This document shows, in pieces, positions 34,314 to 36,911 of a DNA stretch of 36,911 bases. The position numbers and the translations under genes are program-made. Source of the stretch: Gammaproteobacteria bacterium (GTDB taxonomy: Bacteria > Pseudomonadota > Gammaproteobacteria > Arenicellales > Poriferihabitantaceae); contig WTGA01000152.1 in NCBI GenBank assembly GCA_011523765.1, positions 1 through 36,911 of the forward strand, in the 5' to 3' direction. Below the pieces are notes generated by a model, which searched no databases, was not told the origin of the DNA, and worked only from the letters and a program-made list of their open reading frames with translations. Each line of letters begins with the position of its first letter. Within the stretch, counting starts at the first letter, position 1.

Positions 34314-34658
34314 TTACGGGGCCGCCAGTTTTTGCCGCAGGTCCTGCAGCAGGGCCCGCTGGTTTTCCAGCTGTTTCCTGAGTTCACCCCGCTCGGCATC
34401 CGACGCATTCACCTTTTCCAGCAAATCCTGGTAGACCACCCGGTTGGCCTGAATCTGCTGTTCCGCCAGCTGCAGTGTTTCCCGGAGCTCCTGGTTCCTG
34501 GTTTCCAGCTGACGGTTCATTTCGGTCAAAGCCTCCACTTTCCCGGTCAGCTCCCGGGTATTTTCAGTGAGTTCCTCCCCGTTTTCATCGACATACCAAA
34601 TCAGTACCAGGGGAATGGCTGCCAACCACGGCCACCATTCTTTCGGGGGCCATTTCAC
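34314..34658 (-). CDS. Small membrane-anchored coiled-coil protein
   Basis: A 114-residue protein. Residues about 7-22 ([16 protein letters not shown]) form one N-terminal membrane helix; from about 27 to the end the chain is charged and heptad-like ([28 protein letters not shown] region, then [13 protein letters not shown] and [22 protein letters not shown]), a predicted long coiled coil. No catalytic motif is seen. GTG 34658 is chosen because it overlaps the argC TGA as GTGA, the classic translation-coupling arrangement; the longer ATG frame from 34688 would overlap argC by 34 bp. It resembles FtsB/FtsL-like bitopic coiled-coil proteins in layout only; no family is claimed. Confidence 0.72.
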
Positions 34659-35701
34659 GGTACCAGGGCAATTCCGGAAAGGCCGCATCCCTCGTCCAGC
34701 CCGAGCATCAGGTTCATATTCTGCACGGCCTGCCCGGCGGCCCCTTTCACCAGATTGTCCTCGACCGCCAAAACGACGATGGTCCGGGAACCCGGAGGCC
34801 GATGCAGCGCCAGCCGGCAGACATTGCTGCCCCGGACATTGCGGGTATCGGGATGCGACCCGGTGGGCAACACATCCACAAACCTTTCATCCCGGTAGTG
34901 CCGTTCATACAGGGACTGGATTTCATCCAGGGGGGTTGCGCTCGCCGCCTCCGTAAGGCGGGCATACAAGGTGGCATGGATGCCCCGGATCATGGGCAGC
35001 AGATGGGGGATGAATACCAGTTCCACCGTACCGCCTCCCATCTCCCGCAGGCCCTGCAGGATTTCCGGCAAGTGCCGGTGTCCGGATGCAGCATAGGCCT
35101 TGAACGAATCCGACAGCTCCGAAAACGCCGTCCCCAGGACCGCCTTGCGGCCCGCCCCGGAAACCCCGGACTTGGCATCCGCGACCAGTGAACCGGTTTC
35201 CACCAGGCCGGTTTTCAGCAGCGGCAAAAAGCCCAGTTGCACGGCGGTCGGATAACAACCCGGGTTGGCGACAATGCCGGCCGTCCGGATGTCTTCGCGG
35301 TAGACCTCGGGCAACCCGTACACCGCCTCCGCCACCAGTTCGGGGCATTGATGTTTCAGGCCGTACCACTTTTCCCATTCCCCGATGTCCTTCAGGCGGA
35401 AATCGGCGGAAAGATCCACCAGCCGCACACCGGCATCCACCAGTTCCCGGGCGTGGGACATCGCGATTCCATTGGGTGCCGCACTGAATACCAGGTCACA
35501 CCCTTTGAGGTTGCCCTGGTCCGGATGGGAAAACCGCAGGCCGGAAACCTGTCTCAGGGATGGAAACAAATCGGAGACCAACTGGCCGCATTCACTTCTC
35601 GAAGTGACCTCGACCACTTCCGCTTCCCCGTGATGGGCCAGCAGGCGCATCAGCTCCATGCCGGTATATCCCGTACCCCCGATTATTCCGACCTTGAACA
35701 T
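34655..35701 (-). CDS. argC: N-acetyl-gamma-glutamyl-phosphate reductase
   Basis: NADPH-dependent reduction of N-acetylglutamyl-5-phosphate to the semialdehyde, the third step of arginine synthesis. The 348-residue protein has the dinucleotide motif [10 protein letters not shown] at 5-14, the SAAPNGIA block near 73-80, VDLSADFRL at 95-103, GLPEVYRE at 129-136 and nucleophile C149 in [10 protein letters not shown] 35701 (MFKVGIIGG) is chosen; an open frame to 35758 adds 19 residues that are not family-like. It heads the unit argC, coiled-coil gene, class V aminotransferase. No other arg gene lies in the window. Confidence 0.96.
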
Positions 35702-36079
35702 GTCCGAAACCCTGTCTTGCCCGCCAATATCCCACAACTCACTGCCCGGCCCGCACAATCAGGCAGCCGACCAGTCCGTTTCAGCAATTCTTCCCGCTCG
35801 ATTTCGCCAATCATTCTTCTTCAAACCTGCAGCCGACCGGGTGTCCCGGTACCGTTTCGCCCCCAAAACGGCACGGGGTAACGGGATTGGCACCGTACGT
35901 GATTTCTCCCAATGCCACCAAATGAATCCCCGTGGGTGCACGGGCTACACGCCAAAGGGCGTTGCCTGCCCGCCTCCTGACCACTCAGCCAGCCAGACGT
36001 TGAAAACCGTTAATTAAACATTCGGTGCTCAGGTCGGATGCCTGCACCCACCGCGCACCTGGGAACCGCGGCCGAACCG

Positions 36080-36313
36080 CTACCTGGCTCCGTGAGATAG
36101 TATAGGAAACACGAATTCACAAATCAATGCAGGAGTTTGGCCCGTGCAGGAGTTTGGCCCGCTACATCGAAACCAAATCCGGCCTTGACGAGTCCCATGC
36201 CCATGGAAGCATAATATCCCCTGCAAGACCCGCGTCGCTGCGCTCCGATCGATGGTCACCTTCATCCGGTCTGGGTGGTCACGTTCAGTGAAGATGAAGC
36301 CTAAATTGTGCAT
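36080..36313 (-). pseudogene. Possible small gene relic with compensating indels
   Basis: A minus-strand open frame begins MHNLGFIFTERDHPDRMK and continues VTIDRSAATRVLQG, which looks protein-like, then becomes Cys/Arg-rich. If one T is removed near 36208-36213 the text continues as IYASMGMGLVKAGFGFDVAG, and if one copy of the 17-bp duplication is removed it returns in frame to the last 18 codons (ending SHGAR). A 1-bp plus a 17-bp insertion would keep the frame open by chance while scrambling the middle. No family is recognised, and this reading is conjectural. Confidence 0.25.
36128..36161. repeat. 17-bp perfect tandem duplication
   Basis: TGCAGGAGTTTGGCCCG occurs twice back to back (36128-36144 and 36145-36161). 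A perfect two-copy tandem of this length suggests recent slippage or a small duplication. Confidence 0.9.
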
Positions 36314-36346
36314 AAACTCTAAATTCTCGTGGATCAGGCCATTTCT

Positions 36347-36911
36347 ATGCTCACTGGGCTAACCATACGCAACTTCAAGCGCTTCAACGAGATTGAGGTC
36401 GAATTGGGAAACCCGGTCGTCTTCATCGGACCGAACAACTCGGGCAAAACTTCGGCCATGCAGGCGTTGGCGCTATGGGATATTGGTCTGAAGCGCTGGA
36501 ACGAGAAATACTCCGGCAAGAGTGCACCGGACAAACGGCCTGGCGTCACTGTAAATCGCCGCGATCTTTTTCCGGTCCCCCATCCCACCGCCAATCATCT
36601 CTGGCGTCGATTGCGTGTGCGCGATGTCAGCAGTTCTGGAGGGTCCACCAAGACCAGCAATGTTCGCATTGATCTCATTGTGGAGGGCATCACTAACGAC
36701 AAGATTTGGAAATGTGGCCTCGAATTCGATTTTGCCAACACCGAATCGTTCTATTGCCGCCCCCTGAGGCAAGATGACAGCACGCACCCGCAGCGTTTTC
36801 CCGTACCGCCGGAGGCAGGCAATATTCATATCGCCTTTTTGCCACCCATGTCGGGCCTGATGGCGACCGAAACCCGGCTTGACCCGGGCGCGGTGAATGT
36901 ACGGGTCGGCG
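36347..36911 (+). CDS. AAA ATPase, RecF/OLD-like, N-terminal part (cut by window end)
   Basis: The first 188 residues of an ABC/SMC-type ATPase. It opens with the strand MLTGLTIRNFKRFNEIEVEL typical of RecF/OLD/AAA_15 proteins, followed by Walker A GPNNSGKTS at 28-36. Then come the phrases ALWDIGLKRWNEKYSG, KRPGVTVNRRDLFPVP and LWRRLRVRDV, and the insert before the distal ABC motifs; no signature or Walker B has been reached at the window end. The frame stays open to base 36911. ATG 36347 is the natural start; no strong ribosome site is seen. Proteins of this type are common in genomic islands and defence loci, often next to a nuclease or helicase, but the partner gene, if any, lies outside. 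It is transcribed away from argC, from the accessory-looking right edge. Confidence 0.82.
   Translation, partial: MLTGLTIRNFKRFNEIEVELGNPVVFIGPNNSGKTSAMQALALWDIGLKRWNEKYSGKSAPDKRPGVTVNRRDLFPVPHPTANHLWRRLRVRDVSSSGGSTKTSNVRIDLIVEGITNDKIWKCGLEFDFANTESFYCRPLRQDDSTHPQRFPVPPEAGNIHIAFLPPMSGLMATETRLDPGAVNVRVG

Follow-up and report, generated by a model that had tools for sequence, protein, structure and literature searches.

Which gene begins at the right end of this contig, and does it open a defence or mobile island, as the initial annotation had proposed? The window, 36,911 nucleotides at its full length, comprises the entire contig C139 of a gammaproteobacterial draft genome of 3.09 Mb in 177 contigs, for which a contamination of 0.53 is given. 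Near the right end an open frame starts with ATG at position 36347 and runs on the plus strand to the window end at 36911. The 188 translated residues begin with MLTGLTIRNFKRF and, together with the Pfam matches and the full-length relatives, mark the frame as the 5' third of an OLD-family ABC ATPase-TOPRIM-like gene, which runs off the contig after 188 codons.

The ATPase gene and its left-hand surroundings

The gene encodes the N-terminal part of an OLD-family ABC ATPase. The Walker A motif GPNNSGKT (residues 28-35, positions 36428-36451, plus strand) is also kept in the aligned relatives, and the 188-residue frame matches the Pfam families AAA_15 (1.6e-10) and AAA_23 (4.9e-7), both passing the cut-offs. 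Walker B and the H-loop are found in the relatives and the ATPase fold in structural models, so that the first reading of the frame as a RecF/OLD-like Walker A ATPase was confirmed. An ATPase of the AAA_15/AAA_21 type, as known for PARIS, was detected by Pfam both in the window frame and in full-length relatives. PADLOC, which the initial annotation had recommended, matched the window frame to 62 families, led by AriA (4.9e-12) with NsnB and GajA next; the best 25 of the 62 matches use the first 46 residues only, and therefore the system is not assignable from the window alone. A plasmid search with the 188 residues gave no match. The C-terminal domain had been expected beyond the window, and indeed the contig ends inside the gene.

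The left neighbour (34658-35701, minus strand) belongs to the semialdehyde dehydrogenase family according to Pfam and the relatives and is presumably argC. Farther left, Pfam recognises a class-V aminotransferase, a PP-loop family protein, AsmA/YhdP, DUF938, glutamine synthetase and HflK/Band_7. Among the nine left-hand frames scanned with Pfam, eight belong to ordinary families or gave no match (two of the nine are without a match), with no defence family among these eight. The spacer between argC and the ATPase gene (35947-36292) contains two stretches that resemble intergenic repeats elsewhere in the genome, the first (35947-36134) being 68% similar to one other site on contig C52 and the second (36160-36292) matching in parts five other sites on contigs C81, C138, C150, C9 and C4. 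At their junction lies an exact 17-bp tandem duplication (36128-36161, with copies at 36128-36144 and 36145-36161). The odd spacer with a duplication that had been remarked on earlier is thus real.

A second copy and the assembly break

A second copy of the gene in the same genome ends contig C123 (bases 565-2, minus strand) and is 96% identical to the window from base 36313 onward. The 34 bases 5' of the ATG (36313-36346, plus strand) are common to both copies and the homology fades farther left. The last 55 bases of the window (36857-36911) are identical to the end of contig C123; both termini carry this exact 55-mer and differ at the 56th base. A k of 55 is usual for SPAdes assemblers. With the common terminal 55-mer, a branch in the assembly graph is the simplest reading, past which the copies are too alike to be separated, and the cut-off of the contig inside the gene is best explained by such a branch due to the second copy.

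The two copies differ at 22 of 565 bases and look constrained, since dN is 0.028 and dS 0.079. Leaving the terminal 55-mer aside, they are identical over at most 218 consecutive bases, and in 200,000 random placements a run of this length arose at a frequency of 9e-5. The patchwork of differences therefore appears to reflect a recent sequence exchange between the two copies; synonymous differences are also missing around Walker A, where constraint could add to the patchwork.

The 3' end of one copy is found at the end of contig C127 (6088 bases), where a frame closes with EIDPEVSEKLDQIAETARTAMPIGLMDCTAS and aligns with the C-terminal end of the family. About 1.06 kb of the gene middle between the C123 and C127 ends is uncovered (573 - 188 - 31 codons). 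A 40-base pattern from the C127 end matched in the whole genome only C127 itself, so that no second downstream contig was found. The genes on C127 are read by us as hemJ, a trmL-like gene, gpsA and others, and the small gene beside the C123 copy as DUF1127-like; in Pseudomonas argC adjoins hemJ, which had suggested joining C139 to C127. To place C127, the hemJ loci of 29 relatives (L046-L074) were compared, most of which extend just 1.5 kb, so that the counts are lower bounds. The DUF1127-like gene lies beside hemJ in at least nine of the 29 loci and a lysR gene in at least seven, all within the same bacterial family, and argC was found in none of the 29. C127 was assigned to the C123 copy because the hemJ loci of the relatives carry the C123 genes, and for the same reason joining C139 to C127 was dropped. 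The gene 5' of argC differs among relatives, and synteny gave no name for the right neighbour of the window copy.

Two copies in a draft of 177 contigs might also arise by binning or from mixed strains, instead of representing two loci of one genome. We consider this quite unlikely, as the upstream sequences of the two copies differ, the C123 copy has neighbours that resemble the hemJ region of the same bacterial family, the best matches of the window's argC fall in that family too, and the contamination is given as 0.53.

In the nine relatives with the DUF1127-like gene, fewer than 700 bases separate the aligned parts of hemJ and this gene, too few for the ATPase gene. This indicates that the C123-C127 copy is an insertion at a site unoccupied in the nine relatives, of which three (G001, G018 and G020) have a homologue at another site. 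A search for a target-site duplication or terminal inverted repeats around the C123/C127 copy found none, with matches of just 8-9 bases, partly T-runs, which is weak evidence. Overall, the sister copy looks like a solitary insertion between housekeeping genes. It is isolated as far as its surroundings were read, the window copy is so on its left, and the relatives are mixed in this respect. The proposed entry to a defence or mobile island was not borne out, as the left neighbours of the window copy are ordinary and so is the far flank of the sister copy as far as it was read. Ordinary syntenic genes next to the ATPase had been named as the finding that would speak against an unusual system; they are present downstream of the sister copy, but the ATPase gene itself is absent there in the relatives. 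In the same genome, contig C163 (4.25 kb) carries a further OLD/RecF-type ATPase frame of 481 aa (L034:227-1672) beside a small frame.

Full-length relatives and their TOPRIM-like domain

Relatives were found in seven genome records, namely from Gammaproteobacteria, Nitrospinae, Aminicenantes, Bryobacteraceae, Dehalococcoidia, Thiomargarita and Hymenobacteraceae. Six of the seven are full-length frames of 525-617 aa and L021 is interrupted. The complete gene of about 575 residues in relatives comprises the ATPase (residues 1 to ~340) and a C-terminal TOPRIM-like domain. Viral contigs contributed two close homologues (L106 and L107) and a distant prophage-type set; L106 also carries what reads as a phage portal-like gene. 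Identity of the window protein over its 188 residues is 75.5% with L018, 72.9% with the Nitrospinae protein and 69.7% with the Dehalococcoidia protein, compared to 67.0% and 62.2% for two members from its own bacterial family (L035 and L036). The higher identity to other lineages fits a transfer between lineages, as far as sequence comparison can suggest it; the tree, with 8 starred of 21 inner branches and long branches, is poorly resolved and cannot alone carry this claim.

The gene is present in 10 of 369 genomes of the class at E <= 1e-80 and in 8 of 100 near relatives at E <= 1e-20, this genome being included in both counts. Broken copies occur in L021 (interrupted), L133 (one in-frame TGA) and G020 (two adjacent frames). 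A defence gene with high turnover would be expected to show such scattered sites, patchy presence and decay. A cellular role apart from phage, for example in DNA repair or the cell cycle, has been proposed for archaeal Cran1 (PMC12796447), and many copies indeed lie among housekeeping genes. For the present family we regard such a role as very unlikely, given the patchy presence at E <= 1e-80, the three broken copies and the positions within or next to defence genes; neither vertical inheritance at a single conserved site nor essentiality was seen. The L018 protein gave no match in a phage collection and six weak matches in plasmids (21 to 28% identical). In NCBIfam none of the best 25 matches per protein reaches the cut-off, and in PHROGs families of unknown function rank top.

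A TOPRIM domain in the same chain, which had been suggested as a check, was found in full-length relatives and in the fold model; the window copy itself stops before it. In the alignment, the C-terminal domain of the full-length relatives carries E369, D373, D429 and REIENY. An AlphaFold model of the whole L019 chain (pLDDT 81.5, pTM 0.63) matched in Foldseek GajA (3.3e-13, best), Thermus OLD (4.8e-13) and also PtuA, with low TM-scores of 0.26-0.40 over the chain. Residues 1-355 of this model match PtuA, SMC and Rad50 heads with Z of about 18 to 22. The C-terminal part folded alone gave a pLDDT of 90.8 and a pTM of 0.86. With this model Foldseek found nothing below 0.001, the best match being the PARIS chain 8ux9_A at 0.011. 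VIA-align ranked 8ux9_A first (Z 10.9, 194 residues, 4.5 A), followed by 8v46_D (Z 10.0), and at lower ranks the OLD TOPRIM domains (Z 7.9 and below), PH0156 (7.5) and retron Eco8 (7.1). The comparison to the BpOLD TOPRIM (Z 7.9, 169 residues, 4.7 A) lies slightly below the tool's safe Z of 8. Since chain B of 8ux9 is AriA, we take chain 8ux9_A for AriB. An AriB-like effector fold is thus supported by both Z values, at a Foldseek E of just 0.011, and a class 1 OLD-type TOPRIM fold in the same chain is present in the relatives according to the predicted model.

At the level of profiles, the AriAB model of PADLOC matched three full-length relatives (1.4e-15, 2.5e-14 and 6.7e-16), the matches being partial and mostly over the ATPase. 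DUF4435 (PF14491), the Pfam model for detecting PARIS (PMC9122126), gave no match up to E 1 in three full-length relatives, and 15 C-terminal domains, including seven from the distant prophage set, remained without one up to E 10. The same 15 domains showed weak matches to DUF3226 (6/15, best 7.5e-6) and OLD-like_TOPRIM (5/15, best 0.02). A search of PDB sequences with the C-terminal profile found nothing meaningful. As the fold ranks AriB-like but DUF4435 does not match, we name the protein PARIS-like and not PARIS.

The metal-binding DxD motif was compared in 33 homologues; L133 and L021 were left out for their broken frames, and L036 and L037 are incomplete but span the motif. The second aspartate is absent in all 18 close relatives, which have DRL (13), DRI (2), DRM, DRK or DPL (one each). 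Of eight more distant rows, five keep the aspartate (L139, L140, L038, L039 and L042) and three have asparagine (L040, L041 and L043), and all seven prophage-type rows have DRD. In the tree L140 (DND) falls on the close relatives' side, but its branch is very long and its place unsure; if this place is right, loss of the aspartate is not a clean mark of the whole group. The complete E plus DxD metal motif of class 1 OLD proteins is thus reduced to the glutamate and the first aspartate, with the second one replaced. Of the 18 close relatives, 17 retain E369, D373, D429 and E452, and L020 has K and E at two of these positions. In L020 (10001-11740) the open frame has TOPRIM changes of E to K and D to E and DPL, and this is perhaps a fully inactive effector.

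According to work on P2 OLD, class 1 OLD proteins conserve the second DxD aspartate, and every metal-A mutation, at this position too, abolishes killing (PMC7049728). In BpOLD this aspartate contacts the metal-A waters and the single mutant still cleaves, and triple mutants of one metal site abolish activity on linear DNA (PMC6755086). With this aspartate missing, nuclease activity is unsure: the TOPRIM domain of the relatives, to which this statement refers, may still cut, cut differently, or not cut, as judged from its residues. The domain could also be a catalytically inert regulatory part with the ATPase acting alone, as reported for the class 1 OLD protein YbjD of E. coli, which retains its anti-phage phenotype without TOPRIM (PMC13261556). 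The uniform loss of the aspartate and the further changes in L020 point in this direction. However, the four other residues are kept in 17 of 18 close relatives and BpOLD metal-A single mutants still cleave, although the matching P2 OLD mutation abolishes killing, and we therefore think an inert domain unlikely.

Defence neighbourhoods and possible function

The neighbourhoods were compared in ten loci outside this genome from a class-wide search, which form the less selected set; a set of ten proteins was picked by eye. In the less selected set, five of ten loci have a defence-listed neighbour (L133, L135, L136, L139 and L140). In the other five (L131, L132, L134, L137 and L138) none was found among those neighbouring frames that were scanned, L137 and L138 having been scanned by Pfam alone. 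A ThiF protein beside L134 matches PADLOC E1-E2 profiles and is read as housekeeping. In L135 the gene belongs to a type 2 BREX operon (PglW-[gene]-PglX-BrxC-PglZ), where it starts some 30 bases behind PglW and abuts PglX. On L141 (1-14296), PglW and PglX of a type 2 BREX operon flank an ATPase-TOPRIM gene, and BrxC/PglY and PglZ come next. L139, a 40% relative in which DGD is intact, adjoins HmaB and a second ATPase, with HmaC farther along, and L140, likewise a 40% relative, adjoins HsdS. On L142 (150-11201) HmaC, HmaB, two OLD-type ATPases and a gene judged PIN-like by eye are present. Weak links are a Mod-like C-terminal fragment beside L133 and a Fic protein beside L136, so that among the eight closer loci L135 is the only strong defence-linked case. 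Outside the less selected set, among loci picked by eye, HsdM and HsdS lie at a distance of about 1 kb from L018. A Mod-like methyltransferase is found near L106, and the neighbour is an adenine-methylase-like gene for L037 and an AbiLi-like ATPase for L023. The suspicion of a defence gene in the initial annotation thus gains support, as relatives were found within a BREX operon and next to Hma and restriction genes. TOPRIM-linked OLD-ABC proteins are described as common next to BREX (PMC12839542).

Taken together, the gene is real and probably defensive but of an ordinary kind, and represents a branch of ATPase-TOPRIM systems that are already known. We lean, somewhat beyond an even balance, towards a single-chain OLD-family ABC ATPase with a TOPRIM-like effector that acts as a PARIS-like abortive-infection guard and has spread as a single gene. 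In PARIS, which consists of the ATPase AriA and the TOPRIM/DUF4435 protein AriB or of an AriAB fusion, detection of Ocr by AriA leads to activation of AriB; host tRNA is then cut by AriB, with growth arrest (PMC12839542, PMC9122126, PMC12409363). The likeness lies in the OLD-ABC ATPase with a TOPRIM-type effector, in the C-terminal fold nearest to chains 8ux9_A and 8v46_D with the AriAB match in PADLOC, and in the relative placed inside BREX, as are the PARIS genes of Salmonella, for which no activity and no response to Ocr were found (PMC11341690). Unlike PARIS, the protein has no DUF4435 match, about 575 residues against 694 AriAB profile positions, and a DxD reduced to the DRL type.

The ATPase half is seen in the window, the full architecture in the relatives, and two copies in the genome; the mechanism described next is inferred. 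At rest, the ATPase would keep the effector domain silent. A phage product that blocks restriction or BREX would be sensed by the protein and serve as trigger, upon which the effector would be activated, host growth would stop and the infected cell would give few phages. By analogy to PARIS, the effector would cut host tRNA, and the one-chain protein may guard restriction or BREX in much the same manner. The gene would travel singly between genomes and sites and at times be captured by BREX, Hma or restriction loci. In the present genome three N6_Mtase genes were found, a family also matched in 13 of 14 control genomes, so that its presence says little, and a search for PglZ did not find it. 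Given these two results, the guarded party here could be a type I restriction system.

The protein might instead be a class 1 OLD nuclease of the ordinary sort, with a solitary ATPase-TOPRIM chain whose target is DNA, to be degraded or nicked, and not host tRNA as for a PARIS-like guard. Like P2 Old, Thermus OLD and E. coli YbjD/OldB it is a single gene with an N-terminal ABC ATPase and a C-terminal TOPRIM-like fold; it is mostly isolated, and class 1 is defined by isolation (PMC10568477). The whole-model Foldseek matches are GajA and Thermus OLD, and OLD TOPRIM domains rank next after PARIS in VIA-align. However, the PARIS chains lie two to three Z units above OLD for the C-terminal fold, all 18 close relatives lack the aspartate described as conserved in class 1 (PMC7049728), L135 is inside BREX and some other relatives are in multigene defence loci. 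We therefore judge this reading improbable. GajA of Gabija shares the ATPase-TOPRIM chain and is the best whole-model Foldseek match, but no GajB-like (UvrD-like) helicase was recognised by eye in the downstream contig C127 of the sister copy. The prophage ATPase-TOPRIM proteins on viral contigs (L110-L120, ~600 residues) are distant full-length homologues with the same motif order, 20 to 23% identical to L019 in seven aligned rows; unlike the close relatives they have an intact DRD in all seven rows and a shorter and different C-terminus.

Returning to the PARIS-like guard, a more far-reaching version is tentative and on balance doubtful. It describes a clade of one-chain guards in several bacterial phyla, in which a residue that is mostly hydrophobic has replaced the second DxD aspartate and the remaining site was kept. 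This clade would act through an altered mechanism (single-metal or non-cutting), move as a lone and self-contained gene, be captured into type 2 BREX between PglW and PglX, and have duplicates within one genome homogenised by gene conversion. In the literature searched, no publication was recognised as treating this exact group, which does not prove the group undescribed.

What stands out is the DxD change, the member embedded in BREX and the pair of copies at which the assembly breaks. As seen here, near-identical duplicates can hide genes of this sort at contig ends in draft genomes. The one residue change makes the question whether the TOPRIM domain must cut directly testable. The family adds to the ATPase-TOPRIM defence proteins a branch that is found in several phyla, is often solitary, and is tied to PARIS by fold and to type 2 BREX by position.
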